Of a DNA stretch of 34,130 nucleotides, positions 1,635 to 31,062 are shown in pieces. The notes under the pieces are model-generated. The model made no database searches. It was given only the letters and a program-made list of their open reading frames with translations, and was not told where the DNA came from. Positions within the stretch are counted from its first letter, which is position 1. The number at the start of each line of letters is the position of its first letter. This stretch comes from Acidobacteriota bacterium. GTDB taxonomy: Bacteria; Acidobacteriota; Blastocatellia; HR10; J050. A program made the translations under genes and the position numbers. The stretch is taken from contig RFHM01000183.1 in assembly GCA_003696865.1 (NCBI GenBank), positions 1-34,130 on the forward strand, in the 5' to 3' direction.

Positions 1635-1798
1635 CGATGATTCTCCTTCTGTGGATTGCCGATGTGCCGCTGGTCGAATCGCTGCGATCGTCGCATTCGA
1701 TTGAACTCCTGCTCCTCAGAGAGCGCCCATCGCCCGCCGGGGACGACACACCGACGACGAGGGCCTTCGGCTCTCCCCATCCTTGAAGACCTGGTCGA

Positions 1799-2101
1799 TT
1801 ACTTCTGATCGGTCCCCTTTTTGGCCGGCTTGAACATCTCCAGCATCCGATCGGTGACCAGGAAACCGCCGACGACGTTAATCGTGGCACAAATCACAGC
1901 CAATGTGCCGAGGATGGTGCTCAAGCCACTGTGACCAGCGCCCGCACTGATCAACGCCCCCACGATGGTAATCCCCGAGATGGCGTTGGATCCGGACATG
2001 AGCGGCGTATGAAGAAGCGGGGGGACTTTGGTGATGACTTCAAAACCGACGAAGATGGCGAGCACAAAGATATAAATGGATACGATGATCGACGCCGTCA
2101 T
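1799..2101 (-). CDS. pntAB: NAD(P) transhydrogenase subunit alpha, transmembrane part (alpha-2)
   Basis: 100 aa hydrophobic protein with FVGFEVITKVPPLLHTPLMSGSNAISGI, the conserved PntA transmembrane motif; lies between pntAA and pntB. Confidence 0.95.
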   Translation of the reverse strand: MTASIIVSIYIFVLAIFVGFEVITKVPPLLHTPLMSGSNAISGITIVGALISAGAGHSGLSTILGTLAVICATINVVGGFLVTDRMLEMFKPAKKGTDQK

Positions 2102-2107
2102 CAGAAC

Positions 2108-3268
2108 CTACCCTCCCGTTCGGACTTTCATGGCCTCCTTCACCATGTCGTTGATGATCTCCCCATTATGCGTCACGCACGCCCCGCGCGTGATCTCATC
2201 CTCGAAATCGAATGACTTCTCCGGCGAGGGGAACAGATGTCGGAACAGATTGACGACATTCTTGGCGTACATCTGACTGGCATGGACCGGGATGGTCGCC
2301 GCCAGGTTCACCGGGCCGAAGATGGTCACTCCCTGGTGTTCGATGATCTCGTTCGGCTTGGTCAGGGCGCAATTCCCTCCTTGCTCGGCGGCGAGATCGA
2401 CGATGATCGAGCCCGGGCGCAGCAGGTTGACCATCTCTTCGGTGATCAGCACGGGAGCGCGTTTGCCGAACACTTGCGCCGTGGTGATAATCACATCGAC
2501 TTTGGGCAATCGCTGGCTGATGACTTCGCGCTCTTTTTGCAGAAAAGCTTCGGACTGCTCCTTGGCATAGCCACCGGCCGTCTCCACATCTTCGGGCACT
2601 TCCATCTCGATGAACTGAGCGCCGAGACTCTGCACCTGCTCCTTGACTGCCGGGCGGGGATCAAATGCTTCGACTTTCGCGCCCAGCCGCTTCGCCGTGG
2701 CGATGGCCTGCAGGCCGGCCACGCCCGCGCCGAGCACGAGTACCGTCGCCGGGGGAATGGTGCCCGCCGCCGTCATCAGCAAGGGGAAAAACTTCCCCAA
2801 ATGATCGGCGGCCATGAGGACGGCCTTATATCCGGTGACCGTGGCCATCGAACTCAGCGCATCCATACTCTGGGCGCGCGTGATACGCGGGATCAGCTCC
2901 ATGGCGAAAGCGCTGATCTTCTTATCCAGGAGCTTCGCGATCGTCTCCATGTGAGATAATGGGGCGAGAAATCCGATCAGCACAGATCCCTCTCGTAACA
3001 AATCCACTTCCGACCGATTCGCCTTGGGATGCCAATCGAGAGGACGAACCTTGAAGATGACATCGGCCCGTTGATAGAGTTCGACGACGTCATCGATCAA
3101 CGTGGCACCCGCCGCTTCATACTCGGCGTCGGAGAACGAGGCGCCCGCTCCCGCGCCGATTTCCACCATGACGTCATGCTCCAGCTTGGTCAGAGTGGGG
3201 ACCAGAGAAGGGATTAACGCTACCCGCGTTTCCCCTTCCACAATCTCCTTCGGAATTCCAATTTTCAC
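2108..3268 (-). CDS. pntAA: NAD(P) transhydrogenase subunit alpha-1 (Re/Si-specific), GTG start
   Basis: 386 aa; MKIGIPKEIVEGETRVALIPS..., VLVLGAGVAGLQAIATAKRLGAKVEAFDPRP. SD-like GGGAGGTGTGAGG directly before the GTG start. Confidence 0.96.
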   Translation of the reverse strand: MKIGIPKEIVEGETRVALIPSLVPTLTKLEHDVMVEIGAGAGASFSDAEYEAAGATLIDDVVELYQRADVIFKVRPLDWHPKANRSEVDLLREGSVLIGFLAPLSHMETIAKLLDKKISAFAMELIPRITRAQSMDALSSMATVTGYKAVLMAADHLGKFFPLLMTAAGTIPPATVLVLGAGVAGLQAIATAKRLGAKVEAFDPRPAVKEQVQSLGAQFIEMEVPEDVETAGGYAKEQSEAFLQKEREVISQRLPKVDVIITTAQVFGKRAPVLITEEMVNLLRPGSIIVDLAAEQGGNCALTKPNEIIEHQGVTIFGPVNLAATIPVHASQMYAKNVVNLFRHLFPSPEKSFDFEDEITRGACVTHNGEIINDMVKEAMKVRTGG

Positions 3269-3516
3269 CTCACACCTCCCGGGTTATTGACTGCATCCAC
3301 ATGATATGTTGTCGCGAGACAGGCAATCGCTCGGATCGCGCGTCGCACTCTTTCGGAAGTTAAAAGAAAATTTAAAACATTACGTCCCGAAATGCCAGAC
3401 CGGATCACTTTTTTTGGAAGAGACGTCCTCAGAGTCACGCCCGACCGCCGTTCATCCCCGCCTCTCAGACCACCTTGATATCCCACCCCTATCCCTCCGG
3501 ATACCATACGCTCTCC

Positions 3517-4662
3517 CTAGGGCACCGTGGTGCGCACCGATCGCCGCTGGGGTTCGGGCGTAGGCCAGGCCAGCGCTCGGGCGAAGAGGCGCTCGTACTG
3601 ATCGGTGACCTTCTCCCAATCATAATGGGCCTTGACGCGCGCCATAGCCTTTTGCCGATAGAATCCGAGTACGTGAGGCTCGTCGATGATTCGTTGAAGG
3701 GTAGCCCTCAGCTCCTCGGCGTCTCGATAGTAGAGACCGGCGTCGCCCACCACTTCGCGGTTCTCGGGCGTCTCCAGCACCACGACGCAATTGCCGAAGC
3801 CCATCGCTTCGATCAACGCCGGATGCGTCCCGCCCACCTCGGTGGCGTGCACGTAACAATAGGCATGCTGCTGGAGGATGCGATAGGCTTCTCCGAACAC
3901 GAATCCGGTGAACAGAATCCGGTCATCGCGCGTGCGCCGCAGGCGACGAATATAGGCCTTCGCGTAAGGGGCATCTCCCACAATGACCAATTTCATGTTC
4001 GTTCGCACGCGTTCGAAAGCCTCGATGACCAGGTGGGCATTATTCTCCGGCTCCAATCGACTCACATAGAGGACGTACTGTTCGGGGAGAAGCCCGAAGG
4101 TCCGAAGCGCCTCGGGCTGGAAGCGCCGCTCGATCTCCGCACCGTAAGCGATCATCGCCGAATCCCGACCGTAATGCTGTCGATAATATCGCTGGATGAC
4201 GCGCGCATCGGTAACCAACAGGTGCGGGCGCCGTGCCGCCCACCATTCAGCCAGTCGATAATAGGCGCGCCCGAGCCAGTTCCATTTCTTGCGCCGGTGC
4301 TCGAGGCCATCCACATTCAATATGGTCTTTTTCCCCGAGAGCCGAACAATCTCGGCGGCGGGCACGTTGGCCGCATTGCATAGCAAGACGACATCATAGT
4401 CCCGGAAACAGGCGTGTATGGCGGCCAGCAGGGTGTGAACGACGGTATCCAAATATTTATGCTTGATGGTGGGCAGAACGACGAGTTCCACGCCCTTGTA
4501 GGCGCGGTCGGGAACGGACACATGATGGCGGCGACCATACACGGTCACTCGATGACCACGCCTGACCAGTCGCGTGCTCAACTGTTCGGCAAATGTCTCG
4601 AATCCTCCATAGTTCGCCGGAATGCCCCGTATTCCCATAATGGCAATTTTCATCGGTCTCAT
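3517..4662 (-). CDS. Glycosyltransferase (DUF1972/GT4-like)
   Basis: MKIAIMGIRGIPANYGGFETFAEQLSTRLVRRGHRVTVYGR and ATEVGGTHPALIEAMGFGNCVVV. The ORF track begins at 4740, but the ATG at 4662 forms an ATGA overlap with the upstream gene's stop and is the more likely start (or ATG at 4653). Confidence 0.9.
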   Translation of the reverse strand: MRPMKIAIMGIRGIPANYGGFETFAEQLSTRLVRRGHRVTVYGRRHHVSVPDRAYKGVELVVLPTIKHKYLDTVVHTLLAAIHACFRDYDVVLLCNAANVPAAEIVRLSGKKTILNVDGLEHRRKKWNWLGRAYYRLAEWWAARRPHLLVTDARVIQRYYRQHYGRDSAMIAYGAEIERRFQPEALRTFGLLPEQYVLYVSRLEPENNAHLVIEAFERVRTNMKLVIVGDAPYAKAYIRRLRRTRDDRILFTGFVFGEAYRILQQHAYCYVHATEVGGTHPALIEAMGFGNCVVVLETPENREVVGDAGLYYRDAEELRATLQRIIDEPHVLGFYRQKAMARVKAHYDWEKVTDQYERLFARALAWPTPEPQRRSVRTTVP

Positions 4663-5801
4663 CGCCTCGCTACCTCGATGGACGCGCGCGCGCCCACTTC
4701 CCGATAGACGGCCAGGGTCAACTCCGCCGTCCGATGCCACGAGAAGCGGGCAGCCTGCTGCACACTGCGCTCAGCCAACTCGTTGCGCAATTGACGATCT
4801 TCGATCACGCGAAGGATGGTCCGCGCCCAGGCTTCTTCATCATAGGGATCGACCATCAGGCCCGCCTCTCCAACGACCTCGGGTAACGACGAACTATTAC
4901 TGGTGATCACCGGCGTCCCACAGGCCATGGCTTCCAGGACGGGGAGACCAAATCCTTCAAATATGGAGGGATACACGAACACCGTTGCCCCACTATAGAG
5001 ATCGGGCAAATCGCTCTCCGGAACGTATCCGGTGAACACCATGTCCCCAGCATAGGGGGATCGATTCACCTCATGCAAGATATTCCGATACAACCAGGCG
5101 CGCTTCCCCACGATGACGAGCTGGTGACGAAAATCTTCGACCATCTCCCGCAATCGCGAGTAAGCCTTGATGAGTCGAGCCAGGTTCTTTCGCGGTTGAA
5201 GATTTCCGACGCTCAACAGGTACGGCCGTTCGATCCCATACTTCTTTTTCACCGCCTGAAGGCGCTCCTCATCCCGCGTAGGCCTGAATTCCGGACCCAC
5301 GCCGTTGGGCGTGACCACGACTTTTTCTGGTGGTAACCGGTAGGTGTTGATGATATCCCGTCGCGAGTATTCGGAGACGGTCAATACCTTGGCCGCCCGT
5401 CGCGCCGTATGAGGGATGGTTCGCCGGAAGAAAAATCGCTCTCGCGGCGTGAAAAATTGGGGGAAATGCTCGAACGAGAGATCATGAATGGTCACCACGA
5501 TCGGTTTGTGACAGAACGGAGGCGCCGTATATTGGACGTGGATGAGATCGACGCCGGCCCGATACATGGCCAGCGGAAAACTGACCGGAATCCGAGCATA
5601 TGGCGTATGCGGTCGGATGAGCTGGACGCGGACATTGGGAAAGCGTCCCTCCCACTGACGGGCCACCTCCGGTCGCGTGAAAAAGAGAACGTATTCGTTG
5701 AGGCGATCGATCTCGGCTAAGGCGAGAATGAGGTTCTTAATATAGGTTTCGTTCCCCGTCGATTGGCTCCCGATGGCATGAGCGTCGATTCCAATTCGCA
5801 T
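4659..5801 (-). CDS. Glycosyltransferase family 4 (GT-B)
   Basis: 380 aa; MRIGIDAHAIGSQSTGNETYIKNLI..., LLSVGNLQPRKNLARLIKAY, VYPSIFEGFGLPVLEAMACGTPVITSNSSSLPEVVGEAG. Confidence 0.94.
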   Translation of the reverse strand: MRIGIDAHAIGSQSTGNETYIKNLILALAEIDRLNEYVLFFTRPEVARQWEGRFPNVRVQLIRPHTPYARIPVSFPLAMYRAGVDLIHVQYTAPPFCHKPIVVTIHDLSFEHFPQFFTPRERFFFRRTIPHTARRAAKVLTVSEYSRRDIINTYRLPPEKVVVTPNGVGPEFRPTRDEERLQAVKKKYGIERPYLLSVGNLQPRKNLARLIKAYSRLREMVEDFRHQLVIVGKRAWLYRNILHEVNRSPYAGDMVFTGYVPESDLPDLYSGATVFVYPSIFEGFGLPVLEAMACGTPVITSNSSSLPEVVGEAGLMVDPYDEEAWARTILRVIEDRQLRNELAERSVQQAARFSWHRTAELTLAVYREVGARASIEVARR

Positions 5802-5963
5802 CGCCGGGGGGAAATATTACGGACTCCCGACGAAAAAAACAACCTGGGAGATGCGTCTCGGCGAGGGAGACTCCTCCGTCTCTCTGATCGATGGGGCGCA
5901 CTCTGAGAGCGTCAGCCACCGCCTTACGACTCAACCCGGTGACCGGAATCGCGTTCCACACAT

Positions 5964-6158
5964 TCAGGCCGCCTTGTGCTGCTCCGAACTGAGTACCCGA
6001 TAAATGAAGTAAATCACGAAGGCGACGATCCCCACCGCCAGCGCCACGTACACCAGGCTGACGACGAGGCCGAACACAACACCAAGAACCCAGAGCGCGA
6101 TTTTGATGATCACATATGCGGCGATGATGCCGACGATGATCTTGAGCAGTTTCATCAT
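5964..6158 (-). CDS. Small two-TM membrane protein of unknown function
   Basis: 64 aa, hydrophobic: MMKLLKIIVGIIAAYVIIKIALWVLGVVFGLVVSLVYVALAVGIVAFVIYFIYRVL; SD-like GGAGGG upstream of the ATG. Confidence 0.65.
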   Translation of the reverse strand: MMKLLKIIVGIIAAYVIIKIALWVLGVVFGLVVSLVYVALAVGIVAFVIYFIYRVLSSEQHKAA

Positions 6159-6217
6159 CTTTATTCCCTCCTCGATCTCTTCTCCACCACCGGGATGCTG
6201 AGTCCGCTCACCGGCCC

Positions 6218-7015
6218 TTACCTCTTGTCTCCCCTGGGGCGATCCGATGGGGAGTCGCGTTCACCGGAATCCGTCGCACCGGGTAGCCGGCCGGTGGGCG
6301 GCGAAAAGAGCGACGGCGTCACGAGGCGGAAATCAACCGAGAGCGGCTCCGATGGCTCCTCTCTCTGTGAGGCCCGCCACTGCCTGACGATGAGATAGAC
6401 GCCTCCGGCAATGAGCAGGAGCGGCCATAACCGCGCCAACCGAAGAGGCGTACTGAAGAACTGAAATACGTCGGTGAGCAAAAAGATGAGACCCAGCGCG
6501 ATGAGCAGGCCCGCCCAGGTCCGAACGTGATCCTGCAGGAAGCGTCGGAGCCGGAGATCTTCTTGAGTCGGATCGCTCCCAGTCCGAATGGCCCGCGCCG
6601 TCCGAACGGCATCCATGATGGAATAGAGATAGATGACGCCCCCACCACCGCCGAGCAGGGCCAATCCGGTGAGTTCGGCCAACTCCCACAGACCAACGAT
6701 GACGATGAAATACACAAACGCTTTGGTATGCTGGCGATTATAAGCCGCGCCCAACCCCGGCACGAGCGCGGCCAAGAAGGCCAGGACGGGCGATGGTCGC
6801 CATCCCATGGACCTCTCCGGATCGGCTCTGCCCGCCGATCGCAACAGTTCCACACCGCGCACGATACAATCCTGACAGTAGGCAAACCCCTTGATCCGAT
6901 GATCGCATCGGGGACAGAGCGGCCGGCCACAAGCCGAACACTGGATCATGGCGCGATGGGCCGGATGGTAGAAACATTTCATCATCATCACTCCACCTGT
7001 CGAAGAGATCCTCAC
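6218..7015 (-). CDS. Zinc-ribbon/B-box-like membrane protein with C-terminal LiaF/DUF5668-like TM segments
   Basis: N-terminal CFYHPAHRAMIQCSACGRPLCPRCDHRIKGFAYCQDC; several TM segments; GTGA overlap (7012-7015) with the anti-sigma gene. The true start may be an ATG shortly downstream after AGGTGGAG. Confidence 0.8.
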   Translation of the reverse strand: MRISSTGGVMMMKCFYHPAHRAMIQCSACGRPLCPRCDHRIKGFAYCQDCIVRGVELLRSAGRADPERSMGWRPSPVLAFLAALVPGLGAAYNRQHTKAFVYFIVIVGLWELAELTGLALLGGGGGVIYLYSIMDAVRTARAIRTGSDPTQEDLRLRRFLQDHVRTWAGLLIALGLIFLLTDVFQFFSTPLRLARLWPLLLIAGGVYLIVRQWRASQREEPSEPLSVDFRLVTPSLFSPPTGRLPGATDSGERDSPSDRPRGDKR

Positions 7016-7932
7016 CGGGGATCGCGGCCGATGGCCGGTCCTCCATGTCGCGTTCCGAGAGGAGCACCGGGCGATTGCGCTAACGGCTCTTTCTTCTTCT
7101 CTCCTCGCTCCCGGGGCGCACCAGAGGTGGGATATCCGACCCGGTCGGTCGTCTCAACAAACAGGTCGGCACCGAACCGGAGGACGCCACTCAACTGCGA
7201 TGTCACACGATGCCACCGGGAAGCGATTCGCCGTCCTTCCAATGAGCCGGAGCGGGCATGGGCGAACACCCGTTCGGCCTTGATCCTCGCCTGTCTATAG
7301 ACTCCGCTTAAGGTCATGTCGTCGGAGACCTCAACCAGGAGGAATCCCACTGTGGCCAGGGAGAGAATGACGGCCGTCATCCCCTCTGGCGCGAGGACGA
7401 GGCCAATGATTCGCGCGAGCTTCGCTCTCGTCTCCCCCCACCATCGACGAGCTATGGCTCTCCATTTTCGATGGATCGGTACCCGATCAATGCCCACAGT
7501 CGCCCTCATGATACGTCGCTGAAGATCGTCGGGTGCGGGCACGGCTCTCGCTTCGTGGCATAACTGGCGCGCCAGTCGAATACTGGTCAGAAGCCGCTGG
7601 CACCGAGGACAGGCCTGGAAGTGATCTTCGAAGATGTGATAATCGCTGGCCGAGATGTAGCCCTCAAAATAATCCAGGATCAACTCGTCGAAGACGGCAC
7701 AACTCATCATCGGGCCCGCCGGCGTCGCTCGAAGGATGCGGCTCACCAGATCCCCAGGCGGCTCGACGATGGCCGCCTGGCGACAGGCGGCCATGGTCGC
7801 TTGCACATCGCCGAGCAATTGACGACACGCCGGGCAACTCATCACGTGTTCGGCACACTGGGCGCGCACAGCCGGCGTCAACGTGCCATCCACATACTCG
7901 CCGATGATCTCCTGGAACTGCTCACACGTCAT
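7012..7932 (-). CDS. Anti-sigma factor with two tandem zf-HC2 (ZAS-like) domains and one TM helix
   Basis: MTCEQFQEIIGEYVDGTLTPAVRAQCAEHVMSCPACRQLL... and MSCAVFDELILDYFEGYISASDYHIFEDHFQACPRCQRLL...; TM GMTAVILSLATVGFLLVEV; directly downstream of the sigma factor gene. Confidence 0.9.
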   Translation of the reverse strand: MTCEQFQEIIGEYVDGTLTPAVRAQCAEHVMSCPACRQLLGDVQATMAACRQAAIVEPPGDLVSRILRATPAGPMMSCAVFDELILDYFEGYISASDYHIFEDHFQACPRCQRLLTSIRLARQLCHEARAVPAPDDLQRRIMRATVGIDRVPIHRKWRAIARRWWGETRAKLARIIGLVLAPEGMTAVILSLATVGFLLVEVSDDMTLSGVYRQARIKAERVFAHARSGSLEGRRIASRWHRVTSQLSGVLRFGADLFVETTDRVGYPTSGAPRERGEKKKEPLAQSPGAPLGTRHGGPAIGRDPR

Positions 7933-17945: not shown

Positions 17946-19544
17946 TCACCGTTCTTGAAACAGCACCGGCTCCGGAGTGAGTTCCACAGCGAGACCGGAC
18001 GGACTGCCATCGAGCGGGACGGTCCGGTAATGATCGCCGGACGTAGGGATGGTGTACATGGTGACCGGTCCGCGGATGGGTAGGCGAACCTCTCGCGCGG
18101 GGAGGGGATCGTTCATGCCTCGCACTTCGTCTTCCCACAGCCAAGCCACCCATACCGGCGGACGCCCGTCGGCGAACAGGAAACGATAGAGTTCAACTCC
18201 CGGGTCTGCCTCAATCTTCTCCGCTTGAGCGAATCCATCGAGTTTATCCACCAACAGTGCGAGGGCGTAAAATGCCGGCCAGGGATCGCCGTCAGAGTCC
18301 GTCAAGCCAATGAACGGATTGGCCACGGTGAAGCGAGCGAGCATCTTATCCCAGTCGTTGGGCATACCCATGAACACTTTCTCGAATCCCGCTGCAAATC
18401 GCGTGACGAAGACCTTCACCAGGACGCGCGATTGCTCGGCTCGGTACCAAGCGACGGCTTCATCGTGCAGAGGATCAGCGGGGTTTTTCATGGCCTGCAA
18501 GATTCGCTGCCCATCGGGGATCACCAACTCGGGATGAAAATGGACCAGGGGATTGAACGTCAATCGTGGTTCCGAACGAGCCTCCATGTCCCAGATGGTC
18601 GTGGTCAAGCCGTGTTTGGCCAGTTCTTTCTGTACCCAGGCCATATATCCCGCCGAAGCCGTCTCATACGGGCCGTTTCCACCAGCGTCGAGGATGTCAT
18701 AAAGATACGCCAGCGCCACTGTCAATTCCGTCATGGCGCGGGCCCGCTGCCAGGCTTCCCGCCAGACATCGGACGGAAGACTCTCCAGGAACGCAGCAAA
18801 GCGTTCCTCGAATAACTGAGCGTCGGGATCGTTGTGAAAGAGGTCGTTCCATCGGATGCCGTTGGAGATGATGTGAACGTCGGCCGAAGCGCTACGAGCC
18901 GCGCTGACCGTCTCCTCGAGCAGGATGCGATAGTCGTCCAGCGTGCCCGTCCAGAAGACGGGATTGGCATATTCATTGCCGACTTGATAGTGCAGCACGG
19001 GAGCGCGCAGGCCGGGCATGTCGTCCTGACCATCGTCATCGTAACGCTCGACCAGTGCGGCAATCCAGGCGCGGTAGTCGTCCATGTATTCTTCGGCGGG
19101 CAGGCGATCCGAGTTCCTGAACTCCATGCCGCCGGGGCGATACTCGATCGGTCCAGCGAACCAGCCGTTGCCCAATCGCAGCGAGACGGTGATTCGGAAG
19201 CCGTACTTCTGCCACAGACGTACCGAGCGATCTAACCCCGCCCAGTTGTATCGATGCCGTCCCCCTCGGGGGGGATTAGGTTCGATAGCACTCCAACTCA
19301 CCTGGGCGAAGTTCACCCATCCCGCTCCCGTCCGGGAAAACCGTCGCGGCCACTTCTCCTTCTGGTAGAAAGACTGCAACGGAAAAACATAATCAATGCC
19401 GAAACGAGATTCGGCCGCTTGGGGAGCATCTGACCGGGAGAGGACCGGTGGACCACTCCGCTCGGGCCGAGAGATACCCCGTGGCCATCCGCAGAGAATG
19501 ATCAACATAGTCGAGACGAGGGAAAATGTCGTTCGGTTTTTCAT
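17946..19544 (-). CDS. Secreted clan GH-A-like glycoside hydrolase (family not resolved)
   Basis: Signal peptide MKNRTTFSLVSTMLIILCGW; RFGIDYVFPLQSFYQ...GWVNFAQVSWSAIEPNPPRGGRHRYNWAGLDRSVRLWQKYGFRITVSL; HYQVGNEYANP (candidate acid/base) and TTIWDMEARSEP (candidate nucleophile). Confidence 0.78.
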   Translation of the reverse strand: MKNRTTFSLVSTMLIILCGWPRGISRPERSGPPVLSRSDAPQAAESRFGIDYVFPLQSFYQKEKWPRRFSRTGAGWVNFAQVSWSAIEPNPPRGGRHRYNWAGLDRSVRLWQKYGFRITVSLRLGNGWFAGPIEYRPGGMEFRNSDRLPAEEYMDDYRAWIAALVERYDDDGQDDMPGLRAPVLHYQVGNEYANPVFWTGTLDDYRILLEETVSAARSASADVHIISNGIRWNDLFHNDPDAQLFEERFAAFLESLPSDVWREAWQRARAMTELTVALAYLYDILDAGGNGPYETASAGYMAWVQKELAKHGLTTTIWDMEARSEPRLTFNPLVHFHPELVIPDGQRILQAMKNPADPLHDEAVAWYRAEQSRVLVKVFVTRFAAGFEKVFMGMPNDWDKMLARFTVANPFIGLTDSDGDPWPAFYALALLVDKLDGFAQAEKIEADPGVELYRFLFADGRPPVWVAWLWEDEVRGMNDPLPAREVRLPIRGPVTMYTIPTSGDHYRTVPLDGSPSGLAVELTPEPVLFQER

Positions 19545-20122
19545 GACGCACCCTCCTACCAATAGTAATCCGGCACGATCACATTGTGAAGTTCATCATC
19601 ATTCCGCAATACCGATGCTTATGAACGTTGGACATCCCAGACTCAACATATTTATGAGCCGTTTGCTCGATCATACCACGACTCACCGGGCCCTGAGCGG
19701 CCTGGAATAATTCATCACGACTGATGAGCGGGGCCGGACCATTGTGGACCATGGCGTAGATCTCACGCATCAATGGCCACAGTGAAACACCAGATCAGAA
19801 ACCACTTTTCCATATGCCTCTTTTTGACGAAGACATGTGCCTCGGGAACACTCTGAAGTTCACAAGATCCCATATCCGTTGGGAGAGACGTGGATGGGTG
19901 GCTTTCTTCGGCCTGACTTCATAAACGCGAGTTGCAGTGGGAGCAGTGCTCTTGATACTGTCCGGGCTTGTTGGAGGGCGGTCCATCTGATCCCCGAACC
20001 GGCATGTTGCCGTTCCCCTCTTGCACTGCCCCACCCACCCGAAGTCCGTTTCCATCCACACCGAAGCGGAGCCGAGACGGACCGAGAGAACGGCCACCAT
20101 CTATTAATGAATGTATGATGTC

Positions 20123-23280: not shown

Positions 23281-24885
23281 TCACTCCTCTTGCAACATGA
23301 GGAGCGAGATGGCATTCACCGGCAATTCGAAGCTCACGCTCAACTGGCCATGAGGAGCCTCGACATACCGCGGCGGCTCGAGGAGTTCCAGTTGCGCATG
23401 GGCTTGAATCGTGGCCATCTGCTCAGGAGTGGGATTGAGCGGTCGCCCCAATCGCTCCCAGGCCCGATAGGCATTGCTGTGCTCCTTATCGATGCGATAG
23501 TGCCTGAGCATGAGCGCCTCGGCGTCCAGACCGGAGATCTCGACCTGGATGAGAGCAGCGCGGCCCTCCCCTTCTTCGTCCGCCTCGTCGAAATGGTAAA
23601 CCAACACTTGGGTTCTTGTGAGATCATGCCGAGTAGCAAAGCCCCTTACGGCACTCTCTAGATCGGGTCCAAACACCTGGACCCGCTCGGAGCCCAGCTT
23701 GGCCAAGAGCTCATAGGCGAGGAAAATCGGGAGTTTGACCAGCGCACCTCCCAAGCTAAATGTGAGCGCTCGCCAGCCACCTCTCCCTATGCCACCCGTG
23801 GGTTGGCCCCATCTCAGGAACTTGTCGACTCGGGTACTGGGATCATGAAATACGAGATCAAGAGAGCGACAAAGAAAACAGGCCTCGTACTCGCTATAGA
23901 TACTCTCGGTGCGCCTCCGCAACCGTTGACCCCACTCATTCTGCTGCAACTCCACGCCGATAAGCTCCGGGAACTCGCGCACGATCTGCTTCATCCGCTG
24001 ATTCTTCTGGCGGATGGACTCCGTCGTCCCATAGCCATGCCAGGAGATGAAGTCGATCGGGGTACCGCGCCCCCCGGTGGCGTAATTCCTCCCACGGACG
24101 CAGTGATCGAGGAAGGCCCTGAAATATTGCTCGTTCCCTGCGATGGCCGGACCTCCCACCTTGATTTGGGGATCGGCGGCTTTGGCTCCCGCTACGAAGT
24201 AATCGTACATCTTACAGAAACGCTCCACCTTCTCGGGCGTGACGGGCTCCCCTCGCTCCACGCCGTCGATGAAGTACCTCTTGAGATCCGGCTCATTCCA
24301 CACCTCGAAGTACCAGGTGCGCACTTCCTGTGCGCCGTAACGGTCGAGACAATGGCGGACCGTTTCATAGACGAGATCGCGCCATTTGTTATAGTCTTTG
24401 GGCGTGTTGATCGCCCCGTAGCTGTAATTTCTCACAATGGGGCCCTCGGCCAAGGCATCGGGCATAAAGTCCGTCTCCAGAATGGGCTTCAAGCCCGCCC
24501 TCGTCCAGGTGTCGAGCACGTGATCGAGGTACTGCCAGTTATATCTCGGATTGCCCTCGGCGTCTTCGGAGTAGACTCGGCAACCATAAGGCCAGGGATC
24601 ACCGGGGCGACCGTCGCTGAAGGCATTATGGCAACGAATGTAGCGAAAGGCGTCGCTCTCCTGCGCCAGCTCCCAGAAAGGCCGATTCTCCGGACGAACA
24701 GTGACGGCATAGATGGGGTCGTAACCGATGTTGGCCCAGATCGCCGGATCACAGGGACCGAGGGTTTGCGTGAGATCGACGTGAAAGCTCACTACCCTCT
24801 GAGAAGAGGTCCATTTCGGAAGGGCCGGGACGAGAAGCAGTCCCGAAAACCCGGTCAAAAACGCTCGCCTCGAGAATTCTTTCAT
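23281..24885 (-). CDS. Secreted GH39-like glycoside hydrolase (beta-xylosidase family)
   Basis: MKEFSRRAFLTGFSGLLLVPALP signal (Tat-like SRRAFL); WYFEVWNEPDLKRYF (acid/base), ELQQNEWGQR (candidate nucleophile), C-terminal YRIDKEHSNAYRAWERLGRPLNPTPEQMATIQAHAQLE typical of GH39. Start 24885 preferred over 24963. Confidence 0.88.
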   Translation of the reverse strand: MKEFSRRAFLTGFSGLLLVPALPKWTSSQRVVSFHVDLTQTLGPCDPAIWANIGYDPIYAVTVRPENRPFWELAQESDAFRYIRCHNAFSDGRPGDPWPYGCRVYSEDAEGNPRYNWQYLDHVLDTWTRAGLKPILETDFMPDALAEGPIVRNYSYGAINTPKDYNKWRDLVYETVRHCLDRYGAQEVRTWYFEVWNEPDLKRYFIDGVERGEPVTPEKVERFCKMYDYFVAGAKAADPQIKVGGPAIAGNEQYFRAFLDHCVRGRNYATGGRGTPIDFISWHGYGTTESIRQKNQRMKQIVREFPELIGVELQQNEWGQRLRRRTESIYSEYEACFLCRSLDLVFHDPSTRVDKFLRWGQPTGGIGRGGWRALTFSLGGALVKLPIFLAYELLAKLGSERVQVFGPDLESAVRGFATRHDLTRTQVLVYHFDEADEEGEGRAALIQVEISGLDAEALMLRHYRIDKEHSNAYRAWERLGRPLNPTPEQMATIQAHAQLELLEPPRYVEAPHGQLSVSFELPVNAISLLMLQEE

Positions 24886-24981
24886 CACTCCTGTCCTCCT
24901 TTCACGCAGATGATGAATATCTTGGCCACCCGTAAAGTCTCTGCAAGAATTTGTGCCTTGCACGGTCAGACCACCGCCCGC

Positions 24982-26585: not shown

Positions 26586-28952
26586 TCAGTGCTCAGCTTT
26601 CCACTCCTCAGCAAACTCGATGAGGATGATTTTCAATGCTACTTCTGCGCGCCGTTCGGTTCCGAAATCGACGCCCAATGTTCCTACCAGAAATCTCCCA
26701 TCGGGACTGATATCCAAGGCCGCCACGATGACGCGCCTGCCCAGATACTCGGGAGCCTCGGGATCATTGAAATAGGTCAGCCGCTCCTTATGCATCCCAT
26801 CAGCTGTCATGAGCCAGTATTCGCGTTCCAGTGGTTGAGCCGGCCAATTGGGATCGTCGAAATCGAGTTCATAGCGAGAGGTCGCATTGCTCATGTAAAC
26901 GATCGTGTCACCATCGGGCGAGATGGCGGCGTCCTCCTCCCACACGGTCGGTGAGTTCTGTAAATTAGTCAATCGACCGGTCGGTAGATCGAGAATGTAC
27001 TGGTCCATCCCATATTCGTGCTGACCATCCAGATTTCCGGCCAGAAGCAACTGCCGACCATTGGGGAAAAATCCCATGCTGGTGACGTAATTGCCGCCCA
27101 CATCTTCGGCGCGGAGAATGACGCGCTCGTTCACCAGTCGCGGACCACTCTCGTCGACGACGAAATCGGCTCTCTTGATCTGCCATCGTCCCCAGTTATG
27201 GTGTCCTCCCTCGCCATATCGCTCGGTCCAGATGAGGACCGCGCCATCCGGCGAAAAGTGGGGATTCACCACTCCGAAGGTGGGGGTCGGATCATCGAAG
27301 CCTCGCTTAATCGGGATATTGGTCAATGGCCAGAACTGATCTCCTTCCGGCGTCGTCGCCCAGAGATTGGCGTAGAGCCCCAAGCCGGGATCACCGAGCC
27401 ATTTCATCCACAGGCCGAAATGCTCCTCTGTTTCGGAAACGAAAACAATATATCGCCCTGAGGGATGGAAGACGGCATTTCCGTTGTGCCTCTGAGGAAC
27501 GCCCGGTCGGCCCTCGGTGAGTGACCGGCGAATCGTTCCCTTCACATCCATCAGATAAACGTCGGCGAACCCATCGTCATTCTTCCGATCAAACACGATG
27601 AGGTCGCCCGACGGCGAGAAGCGCGGACGAGCCCCCTGTTGCTGAACGAGGCGAATGCTCTTGAGGCGAGGACTCTTCCCCCTCACCGCCATCCGTCCTC
27701 CCCTGAACGCGATCGTTCGCGAGCCCGCCGCCTCGGCGATCAACGCGCCATACCGAAGACCCGTCTGAGAGAAACGGCCGGCGAGGAGGTTCCGGACTGC
27801 TGCCTGATCCGAGAGCTGACGGAGCCGAGCGTAGGGGAGCCAGCGCGTGCGCTGATCGTAATCCAGGTAAGCGAAGAAGTACTTGCTCCAGAATGCCGAT
27901 ACGAATTCGATGCCCTGAGCCCGAACCAGCTTGACGATGACCTCCAGAAACTTCTGGTCCAGAGGTTCCCAGAAGGAGAAAACATCCCGGCGAAAAGCTT
28001 CACTCCAGGTCTCCCTGCCCAGTTCCGCTTCGCCGACTTTATAGAGCCATGCCTCGCCCACGATGACTCTCTTGTCATGCGAGCGGGCGAGTTCGGCCAG
28101 ATCGACTGCCCGCCGCAGAAGGCCACGCACGACGGGGTAGATATGCAGATCGACATAATCGAGGGCGGGCAGGCGGACCAGCTCTTGCACGAAACGAGGG
28201 TCATCCCAGTTCCCCGCTCCGGCCCCAACGCTCGTCTCTCCTCGCTGGAGTCCTTCCAGGATGAATGAGATCAGTTGGGCATATTTTTGAGGATCGCGCA
28301 ATTCCACCAGGCCCGTATTCTTGGCTTCGGTGGAGGGCTCATTGCCAATGGTGAGGTAGTCGGGTCGGATCTCACGAGCGATGATCTCGGCTACCCGACG
28401 CCGCCCTCGCTTGAACTCCTCGAAGGTCAAACCGGTATAGTCAACCGATACGGAGGTGAAGTTCGGATCTCGGAACATCGCTCCCGTTCCTACCAGGAGG
28501 ACCATTCGCCGCTTCCGGATTTCGGCAGCCAGCCGCTTGTAAAATTCGAGATATTCTTGAGCGCGAGGGAACTCTGGCGCCAGCAGTGGATAGCCGATGA
28601 AGACTTTCACCCCTTTGATGCCCAGAGAGGCCAGCGCATCCAGATAGATGGTGGCGCCCAGCAGAGCGTCTGGCGCCAGCAATTGCTCTCCTCGATGAGC
28701 GTTGGCGGCGAGCAACTCGGCGGCGAAGGTGATTCTCTGTGGCTCGCCGGGAACCTCAATTCCTCGCTCGAACTCCTCCAACCTGTTCTGGAGCTCGTCG
28801 AACAAGGCGCGATATTCGGGCGGGACGTCACTCCCGGTTGAGATGAGAGCCGACCTCATCCATCCGGCCAACCCCAGGAATCCAATGAGGAGAATGACTG
28901 CCCATCTCACCGCTCTCACGCTCCTCCTCTCTTCAGTTGTCCGCTCTCTCAT
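26586..28952 (-). CDS. Membrane-anchored/secreted protein: N-terminal glycosidase-like TIM barrel plus C-terminal PD40/TolB-like propeller
   Basis: 788 aa; N-terminal TM; PDYLTIGNEPSTEAK (candidate acid/base), KRVIVGEAWLYK (candidate nucleophile); then six PD40-like blades such as ARPRFSPSGDLIVFDRKNDDGFADVYLMD, VNPHFSPDGAVLIWTERYGEGG, EDAAISPDGDTIVYMSNA. Confidence 0.82.
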   Translation of the reverse strand: MRERTTEERRSVRAVRWAVILLIGFLGLAGWMRSALISTGSDVPPEYRALFDELQNRLEEFERGIEVPGEPQRITFAAELLAANAHRGEQLLAPDALLGATIYLDALASLGIKGVKVFIGYPLLAPEFPRAQEYLEFYKRLAAEIRKRRMVLLVGTGAMFRDPNFTSVSVDYTGLTFEEFKRGRRRVAEIIAREIRPDYLTIGNEPSTEAKNTGLVELRDPQKYAQLISFILEGLQRGETSVGAGAGNWDDPRFVQELVRLPALDYVDLHIYPVVRGLLRRAVDLAELARSHDKRVIVGEAWLYKVGEAELGRETWSEAFRRDVFSFWEPLDQKFLEVIVKLVRAQGIEFVSAFWSKYFFAYLDYDQRTRWLPYARLRQLSDQAAVRNLLAGRFSQTGLRYGALIAEAAGSRTIAFRGGRMAVRGKSPRLKSIRLVQQQGARPRFSPSGDLIVFDRKNDDGFADVYLMDVKGTIRRSLTEGRPGVPQRHNGNAVFHPSGRYIVFVSETEEHFGLWMKWLGDPGLGLYANLWATTPEGDQFWPLTNIPIKRGFDDPTPTFGVVNPHFSPDGAVLIWTERYGEGGHHNWGRWQIKRADFVVDESGPRLVNERVILRAEDVGGNYVTSMGFFPNGRQLLLAGNLDGQHEYGMDQYILDLPTGRLTNLQNSPTVWEEDAAISPDGDTIVYMSNATSRYELDFDDPNWPAQPLEREYWLMTADGMHKERLTYFNDPEAPEYLGRRVIVAALDISPDGRFLVGTLGVDFGTERRAEVALKIILIEFAEEWKAEH

Positions 28953-29022: not shown

Positions 29023-31062
29023 TCACAGACCCGGCGGAATTCCTCGAACGCCGAGCGATGGAACGAGGCGACTCAACGAAAACGCACTTCTTTTACCGAT
29101 CGCTCCAGTCGCCGGTGAAGACTCCAGACTCCGGCGCCCGCCGATCGCTGTGGAGTCCCAATGAACACCGTTTCCATCTCGCCCATGCGCCGTCTCAGAC
29201 GGAGCCCGCAACTCCAGGAAAGTGACCGAGTGAGGTGGAAGGGCGAGGCGAGTCAGGGGTACCTGCAGCGGCTCCTCGCTCAATACGACGTTCGTGGGAT
29301 CGCGGTCATTATCGGCCGCGGGATCTTCGGCCCACAGTCTCCACAGGCGCGCAAAAGCGGGCGTGAATCCGTCGATTTGGAGCGTAGCCGTCAACGGTCT
29401 CTGCTCGGCGTTGTTGATCACGGCGAGGTGCAAGGTGCCGCCGTCGGGAGAGAGCGCCGCCGCCGCAACGACGTAAGGAACCTCTCGGTCATAGGCCGTG
29501 GCCGAGGGAGAATCCACTGCCACCGGGAGCACGTGACTGCCCGGCCAAGCGGAAAATCCCTGAAAGACATACCCCATGGGTGCGATGCTATAATTGGTCT
29601 GGCTGCGGATCAAGGCCAGGTTGCCTCCACCGAGCGCGAACTGATTGGCGTAGGCCACCGGTGCACGCTGACCTGCATTGAGCAGGCGGATGAACCATTC
29701 AGCGGCGATGACCGCTCCTTCCAGAGTTCGATTGATGTGCCAGTAGTCCTCGTTCAGGAAAATATTCCACTCCGTGACGGCAATGGAGGGTCTCTCGGAC
29801 ACGGCCAGGCTCTCCAGATAGTGATCAATCCTCCCGTACACCTCGGCGAGATGATCGGCGCGCTCCAGGGCGATCTGGCGCCGGGCAGCGTAAGAACCAT
29901 ACGCCCGGACGGGGATCGAAATGTCGTATTGATGACGGACATAGAAGTCCATTTGCTGAAAGATCTCGCGCATGTGGTCCGGATCGGCGATGGGAACGCC
30001 ATCGCGGAAAGGAAGCACCGCCGCGCCGATGGAGATGGGTATCGACGAGGGAGCGGCGCGCATGGCGCGAGCGAAATCCAGGAAGCCATCGTGGCCATAG
30101 GTCGTGTACTCTACCAGGAAGAAGCTCCCCGCCGGCGGCATCGCACCATGCACGCCATCGCCGAACTGGAGCACTCCGGCCTCAGCGTCCAGGACGAAGA
30201 CGCGGGCATTCGAAGGCTGGGCAGTGAGATCCTCGACCTCATGCCACTCCTGGAAGATGCGATCCTCCGCCTGCTGTCGAGTCGCCGCCCAGAAGACCCG
30301 CACTTCACGCACCGGTGGGAATCGCAGGGTGTAAGTCTGATGTGGCCCACCCTTGGCTTTGAAGACGTCTCCTTTCGCGCCCGCGGGATCGTATGCCTGG
30401 CTCGATGTGTTGTCGTAAAAGCCGCGACGCTCCTCCTCGCCACCGAAAAAGTATTTCTCGGGATTCTCGGCGGTCCAGGAGTAGTACCACATGTGCGGTT
30501 GGTTCTCCTCGTTGCCGATCTCGAAGTAGCGTACATTGATCGGCTCGGGAAAACCGAGAGCAGCGCGCCGAGCGCCCCACGGTGAGTCGATAGGGCCATT
30601 CAAGAACTCCACCAGATCGGCGGCATCCTGGGCCGTCATCGTACCGAAGTTGACCGTGATGCTCAACTCGGCGCCGGTATCGCGCACAAATTGGAGGATG
30701 CCGGCAATGTCGACCCCATCGGGCTGGGGCACGCGCCGACCGGGTTTGATCATCTCGTTGCGTTTCCAGTCGTAGGCCGAGGCGTTATTCCCGCCGGGCC
30801 AACGGATCACGCGCACGCCGATGTGCCGTGTGGCCTGTACGAAGCCGGTGTGTTCGACTGTTTGGATAGCCGGAGCCAGGTTCGTCAAATTGCTCCCCCA
30901 CAGGCGCCCGTCGATGACAGGACCGAGTTGGGTCGCATCGACGCTGATGGTGATCTCGGAACTCGGGAGAGCCGGATTATACACAAAGCCAGCGCCACGC
31001 CCGTTGAAGGTGAGAGTGAACAAAAGCAGACCGAGAATGGAAAGTTGCAGGAATCGCGTCAT
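29023..31062 (-). CDS. Secreted GH51/GH79-like (alpha-L-arabinofuranosidase-like) glycoside hydrolase with inserted beta-domain
   Basis: 679 aa; signal MTRFLQLSILGLLLFTLTFNGRG; ISVDATQLGPVIDGRLWGSNL, RVIRWPGGNNASAYDWK, VRYFEIGNEENQPHMWYY (acid/base), PSIAVTEWNIF (nucleophile), C-terminal beta-sandwich ending RLALPPHSVTFLEL. Confidence 0.85.
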   Translation of the reverse strand: MTRFLQLSILGLLLFTLTFNGRGAGFVYNPALPSSEITISVDATQLGPVIDGRLWGSNLTNLAPAIQTVEHTGFVQATRHIGVRVIRWPGGNNASAYDWKRNEMIKPGRRVPQPDGVDIAGILQFVRDTGAELSITVNFGTMTAQDAADLVEFLNGPIDSPWGARRAALGFPEPINVRYFEIGNEENQPHMWYYSWTAENPEKYFFGGEEERRGFYDNTSSQAYDPAGAKGDVFKAKGGPHQTYTLRFPPVREVRVFWAATRQQAEDRIFQEWHEVEDLTAQPSNARVFVLDAEAGVLQFGDGVHGAMPPAGSFFLVEYTTYGHDGFLDFARAMRAAPSSIPISIGAAVLPFRDGVPIADPDHMREIFQQMDFYVRHQYDISIPVRAYGSYAARRQIALERADHLAEVYGRIDHYLESLAVSERPSIAVTEWNIFLNEDYWHINRTLEGAVIAAEWFIRLLNAGQRAPVAYANQFALGGGNLALIRSQTNYSIAPMGYVFQGFSAWPGSHVLPVAVDSPSATAYDREVPYVVAAAALSPDGGTLHLAVINNAEQRPLTATLQIDGFTPAFARLWRLWAEDPAADNDRDPTNVVLSEEPLQVPLTRLALPPHSVTFLELRAPSETAHGRDGNGVHWDSTAIGGRRSLESSPATGAIGKRSAFSLSRLVPSLGVRGIPPGL

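Follow-up and report, generated by a model that had tools for sequence, protein, structure and literature searches.

The 679-aa ORF at 29023-31062 on the minus strand of the window (the whole 34,130-nucleotide stretch of DNA that was analysed) encodes a predicted secreted GH51-like retaining hydrolase, and its barrel carries an inserted module homologous to a domain of phage and CIS baseplate J-type proteins. The protein shows a new architecture within a known enzyme family, and is neither a phage gene nor an artefact. As for the role of the module, we give an even chance to the reading that a single tail-derived insertion into the secreted GH51-like hydrolase now forms a rigid wall of the cleft and has no tail role.

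The host enzyme and its parts

The original prediction, made from the sequence alone, had placed an insert of about 90 residues at 30097-30372 in a GH51-like barrel. The residues quoted in that prediction are present in the minus-strand ORF, and the positions given are at most 6 bases off the domain as delimited here. The parts of the gene are:

29023..31062, minus strand: GH51-like hydrolase gene with baseplate module, 679 aa (Pfam, PDB, Foldseek)
30988..31062, minus strand: probable signal peptide, residues 1-25, MTRFLQLSILGLLLFTLTFNGRGAG (sequence)
30466..30957, minus strand: barrel part 1, residues 36-199, including the acid/base motif GNE (GH51 alignment, AF2 model)
30508..30510, minus strand: acid/base Glu185 (GNE) (invariant in 14 homologues; GH51 alignment)
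30367..30465, minus strand: pre-module linker, residues 200-232, KYFFGGEEERRG...KGD (clade-conserved; canonical GH51 without linker)
30094..30366, minus strand: baseplate-type beta-module, residues 233-323 (TIGR02243, AF2 pLDDT 94.3, Foldseek, hhalign)
30145..30165, minus strand: FGDGVHG motif in the module, residues 300-306 (conserved across both the GH51 inserts and the baseplate proteins)
29566..30093, minus strand: barrel part 2, residues 324-499 (GH51 alignment, AF2 model)
29770..29772, minus strand: nucleophile Glu431 (TEWN) (invariant in 14 homologues; GH51 alignment)
29188..29565, minus strand: C-terminal beta-sandwich, about residues 500-625 (Alpha-L-AF_C match 431-612; AF2 strands)

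Pfam matched Alpha-L-AF_C (PF06964) to residues 431-612 of the window protein (E 1.1e-5; 26.1 bits, gathering cut-off 27) and also gave a match to ASD1_dom (PF22848; E 1.3e-4; 22.0 bits, gathering cut-off 22.2). Because the scores fall just short of both gathering cut-offs, we term the protein GH51-like; the NCBIfam ArfA model, at 73 bits, likewise missed its threshold of 625. The PDB sequence matches were all GH51 arabinofuranosidases, down to E 2.4e-17, and a search with the family profile reached GH51 in the PDB at E 2.3e-38. When the full-length AlphaFold2 (AF2) model was searched with Foldseek, GH51 ranked first (E 3.8e-24; TM 0.56-0.65 by query length), and both the (beta/alpha)8 barrel and the GH51-type C-terminal beta-sandwich were present, the model being of low confidence in parts around the active site (150-156 and 396-400). 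The acid/base Glu185 and the nucleophile Glu431, the latter closing a later strand, align with the catalytic pair of GH51 (clan GH-A) and are invariant in 14 homologues. The PDB matches, the Foldseek search and the catalytic alignment thus bear out the proposed GH51-like barrel as the host. We infer an active enzyme, putatively an alpha-L-arabinofuranosidase-type hydrolase. Its predicted secretion is supported by a hydrophobic N-terminus of the kind seen in signal peptides and by the C-terminal T9SS sorting domain, scoring above the cut-off, of one homologue (L010).

The insertion point is in the beta4-alpha4 loop, directly behind the acid/base residue, so that the insert does sit beside the active site, as had been claimed. 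The net excess over the canonical GH51 L046 is about 122 residues, of which about 92 are module and about 30 are linker (e.g., YFFGGEEERRG...KGD). Two differences from GH51 enzymes lie in the barrel itself. The Glu that contacts arabinose O3 in GH51, i.e., Glu28 of TxGH51 or Glu23 of MgGH51 (PMC7604909), is replaced across the clade, F-x-E-H becoming WG[ST]N (LWGSN), and with this Glu lost the substrate may differ from alpha-L-arabinofuranose. The canonical GIGPxxxRP segment is shortened in the main insert-carrying clade.

Two further observations concern the ORF. The C-terminal 54 residues (29026-29187) have no counterpart in the homologues, save for an unlike extension in L002, and perhaps reflect the loss of an ancestral stop codon. 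Antisense to the gene is a 474-aa open frame (29161-30585, plus strand), which base composition most likely explains.

Relationship of the insert to baseplate proteins

The isolated insert matched TIGR02243 (putative baseplate assembly protein) with an E value of 8.6e-12, at 44.4 bits against a cut-off of 155.8 and over only positions 359-445 of the 659 in the model. PHROGs gave a weak baseplate wedge match (0.009). In Pfam, the window protein had no match to the Baseplate_J core, PF04865, and the insert matched no family, CBM families included; as a single sequence searched against the PDB, the insert found just a designed kelch protein, without a significant stretch. When the insert profile was aligned by hhalign to a baseplate profile, the probability was 98.8 (E 8e-17; 82 columns). 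The baseplate side of this comparison consisted of 11 proteins from relatives of the same class, with TIGR02243/Baseplate_J confirmed in those tested. The pattern common to inserts and baseplates consists of G-x-P-x-Q-x-[FY]-x-L, W-x-x-V-x-x-[LF], D-x-x-x-G-x-[ILV]-x-FGDG-x-x-G-x-x-PP and a closing tyrosine strand; the first of these elements, in the N-terminal half, had been missed in the original prediction.

For structural comparison the insert was folded alone by AF2 from an alignment of GH51 inserts only, which contained no baseplate sequences. The model is a compact beta-domain with a pLDDT of 94.3, and when the whole protein is modelled the module again ranks with the more confidently predicted regions (blocks 83-95). 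The five best Foldseek matches of the isolated module in the PDB were baseplate chains, and these were the only significant ones. The best was 9gtp, the S. coelicolor CIS baseplate (E 1.4e-4; TM 0.72), and the P1 baseplate entries 9vzk/9ay5 matched at E 1e-3 to 5.6e-3. The sixth match was a GH30 xylanase, at E 0.67, and no PDB match was to a CBM. Among the first 17 matches in BFVD, every named one was a baseplate J, wedge or assembly protein, with TM scores of at most 0.80. By TIGR02243, hhalign and Foldseek alike the insert is baseplate-like, in fold as well as in sequence; it shares ancestry with a domain found in the baseplate J-type proteins of phages and CIS, and chance resemblance is ruled out.

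A CocE/S15 peptidase (L028; 289-2292, plus strand) was rejected as a further host of the module, since its LKFGDGVAGKRPPDG segment mimics the motif by chance; such an FGDG look-alike means that the motif alone is insufficient as evidence. In a viral contig, a baseplate-like protein (L061; 3173-5260, plus strand) has two copies of the FGDG module, indicating that some tail proteins carry the module more than once.

Distribution, genome context and evolution of the insert

Thirteen homologues, 52-90% identical, were recovered from 84,980 species genomes, and every one contains the insert; the scan used short exact patterns, one inside the insert and the others in the barrel or tail, and so may favour insert carriers. 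The homologues come from Blastocatellia, Bipolaricaulota, Chloroflexota/Anaerolineae/Caldilineae, Bacteroidetes/Kapaibacterium and Verrucomicrobia. By profile searches the gene is rare, with 1 positive among 301 Chloroflexota, 1 among 198 Bacteroidota, 1 among 247 genomes of the window's phylum and 3 among 100 Bipolaricaulota, all of them genomes already known as carriers. The other GH51s met in these searches lacked the module in those examined (L046 among them), as did the examined canonical GH51s of plasmids and of the searched phyla; in the proteins examined the insert is not a common property of a known GH subfamily. A far more divergent GH51-like carrier, L104, surfaced in a search of the Verrucomicrobiota group. 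L104 is 28% identical to the window protein in the barrel and 38% in the insert, its module is independently detected by TIGR02243 (E 7.8e-13), and the module is preceded by [KR]Y-x-FGG and followed by G-[FY]-[LV]-x-[FY]-x-x-AM, as in the main clade. In L104, as in the 14 homologues, the insert enters the barrel at one and the same point. A search of 195 genomes of the L104 phylum for divergent carriers found L104 alone. The search for other carriers that accompanied the original prediction as a proposed check has yielded 13 homologues and L104, all sharing the insert. In a Bacteroidota genome (G066, contig 130) there is, in addition, a second, divergent paralogue truncated by the contig end (L063/L115), with another linker and the start of the module.

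When the insert profile was run against more than 700 further genomes, the classified matches were baseplate proteins, insert-bearing GH51 and one chance case, about 20 Chloroflexota module matches without a locus being left out of the classification. Module matches in viral contigs were to baseplate-like proteins, with no GH51 among them, and the phage collection gave one weak match, a cyanophage baseplate wedge. Unannotated plasmid matches in Paraburkholderia and Rhizobium proved to be baseplate proteins in CIS-like loci.

The carriers' own baseplate genes were sought with TIGR02243. Each of the 15 carrier genomes gave one match, the enzyme itself, always below the cut-off; these genomes are MAGs and incomplete, so the absence of baseplate genes is not absolute. 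On the inserts in 14 carrier genomes the E values were 1e-4 to 6.5e-12. Two control genomes with real baseplates (G263 and G441) scored over the cut-off, and four others, three with canonical GH51 (G275, G750 and G735) and one of the same family (G002), gave no match. In the window no tail genes, RNA families or tRNAs were recognised.

The neighbours of the homologues include GH1, GH26, DUF6259 and further barrel enzymes, which supports a carbohydrate setting; no conserved partner gene was found across the loci, near relatives excepted. The window itself has a GH39 enzyme (23281-24963, minus strand) and a weak GH42-like barrel protein (17946-19562, minus strand), possibly a loose carbohydrate region. 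Directly downstream of the GH51-like gene and on the same strand is a 788-aa PD40/TolB-like beta-propeller protein (26586-28952, minus strand), which recurs, 87% identical, in L002. L002, of the same genus, holds the closest homologue, where a penicillin amidase/PvdQ-like acylase precedes the GH51-like protein in an in-frame fusion (1742-6007, plus strand; also L015/G001), an ORF of 1404-1422 aa; the window version is free-standing and has its own signal peptide. The L009 homologue (3791-7066, plus strand) continues at its C-terminus into a second, fused barrel hydrolase-like domain, and a free-standing relative 61% identical to that fused domain adjoins the homologue in L006 (2-1276, plus strand).

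In a barrel tree from which the insert columns had been removed, the carriers fell on one side of a branch with support of 95/92, the union of L104 with the other 14 being weak because L104 is a long branch (program warning). In the module tree, built on 99 columns, the 15 enzyme modules grouped together, apart from the 59 baseplate modules (support 96/97; recovered in 95% of bootstrap trees). On present data both trees fit a single acquisition. The module tree is unrooted and so leaves the direction of transfer unproven. Because the module is ubiquitous in baseplate proteins and rare in GH51, movement from baseplate to enzyme is likely. The proposal that the module was transplanted is upheld in its homology and in the fit of the trees to one acquisition, and its direction stays at likely. 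In the barrel tree the window's Acidobacteriota genus falls among Bipolaricaulota and Chloroflexota, a placement suggesting that the gene has spread horizontally.

For the window protein and L002, dN/dS was about 0.11 in the insert (0.048/0.423) and 0.12 in the barrel, and over 91 pairs the insert and barrel identities were correlated (r 0.91; Mantel p 0.0002). With a dN/dS close to that of the barrel and correlated identities, the insert is under purifying selection and is not a passenger. Within a small GH51-like clade it is fixed.

Role of the module and comparison with known systems

In the reading to which we give an even chance, a domain of the contractile-tail baseplate J/wedge type, its source a tail gene, would have entered the beta4-alpha4 loop of the barrel in a single event. 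Given the insertion point, the module would lie next to the acid/base residue, on the barrel's C-terminal face, a cleft-wall placement that rests on topology; there it may act as a rigid cleft wall that shapes the aglycone subsites. Some of the work of the beta2-alpha2 loop, a loop shortened in the main clade, may have passed to the module, and the enzyme would play no part in a tail. There are precedents in GH51: loops on the C-terminal face of the barrel form the +1/+2 subsites, and exchanging them abolished activity (PMC6087011); in MgGH51 the cleft is narrowed by remodelled loops (PMC7604909). Because of these precedents, the shortened GIGPxxxRP segment and the lost O3 Glu, we take the module as the wall of a reshaped cleft. 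We infer that the substrate would be other, or more, than simple arabinofuranosides. A bolder version, which we think unlikely, is that the clade is a separate glycosidase family with a substrate that is not alpha-L-arabinofuranose, that the baseplate domain is essential to the active-site cleft, and that the module may have a latent glycan contact in baseplates too.

The main rival to a cleft wall is an oligomerisation or partner-docking surface, by which the module would keep the hydrolase in an oligomeric assembly or attached to a different secreted protein. The baseplate relatives of the module take part in protein packing in multimeric wedges, and in the S. coelicolor CIS, whose baseplate chain ranked first in the PDB search with the module, the baseplate wedge protein Cis11 is present in two copies per wedge (PMC12237407). 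A GH51 trimer interface lies near the active site (PMC6087011), and the insert carriers have lost part of the usual loops. Against docking stands the lack of a conserved partner gene across the loci beyond near relatives, and we hold this role possible but doubtful. The polymer or surface binding of a CBM-like module, as proposed originally, would suit a predicted secreted enzyme with glycan-active neighbours and a compact beta-domain. It is quite improbable, however, given that neither Pfam nor structure gave the insert a CBM match, that the module is inside the barrel and not terminal, and that its known relatives are structural proteins.

That the module is a neutral leftover, or that the protein is no longer an enzyme, could be argued from the loss of the arabinose O3-binding Glu; this is very improbable, since both catalytic Glu residues are invariant in 14 homologues, and since insert and barrel alike are under strong purifying selection and have been kept across several phyla. 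An assembly chimera, or a chance resemblance through the short FGDG motif of the kind seen in the unrelated CocE peptidase, is refuted: the same join is found in 13 more homologues, which come from separate MAGs across several phyla, both the fold and the full-length profile match the baseplate domain, and another genome of this genus has the same gene and neighbour.

In sum, the original observation is confirmed, and the interpretation as a whole is partly supported. The architecture is unusual in that the canonical GH51s examined lack the insert, but it is not a one-off, being fixed in a small clade. Few cases are documented of domains exchanged between contractile-tail machinery and metabolic enzymes, and the open-licence papers searched contained no example in a GH51. 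Fitting one event, fixed in position and kept over several phyla, the insert provides a clean case of a structural phage-type domain in an enzyme. It sets apart a GH51-like clade whose sugar-binding residues are altered, and its presence in such hydrolases explains spurious "baseplate assembly protein" matches in automatic annotation.

Among known systems, the fungal MgGH51 (PMC7604909) is likewise a GH51 with an added domain and cleft-narrowing remodelled loops, but it has no sequence match to the module and is only a distant relative of the window protein. Unlike proteins of the TIGR02243/Baseplate_J family, the window protein lacks the N-terminal baseplate region, the PF04865 core and a tail gene context; its 91-residue module is homologous to that family (phage P2 gpJ, P1 BplA and CIS wedge proteins, with T4 gp6 a more distant relative) in sequence and predicted fold. 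In contrast to canonical GH51 it has the roughly 122 extra residues with the module, the O3 Glu replaced, GIGPxxxRP shortened (in the main clade) and sub-threshold scores. With the GH51 arabinofuranosidases of T. maritima (3ug3), T. petrophila (3s2c) and X. axonopodis (XacAbf51, 6d25) it shares the barrel and C-terminal beta-sandwich, the GNE acid/base, the E-W nucleophile, the conserved Asn and Tyr, and the RWPGGN segment.
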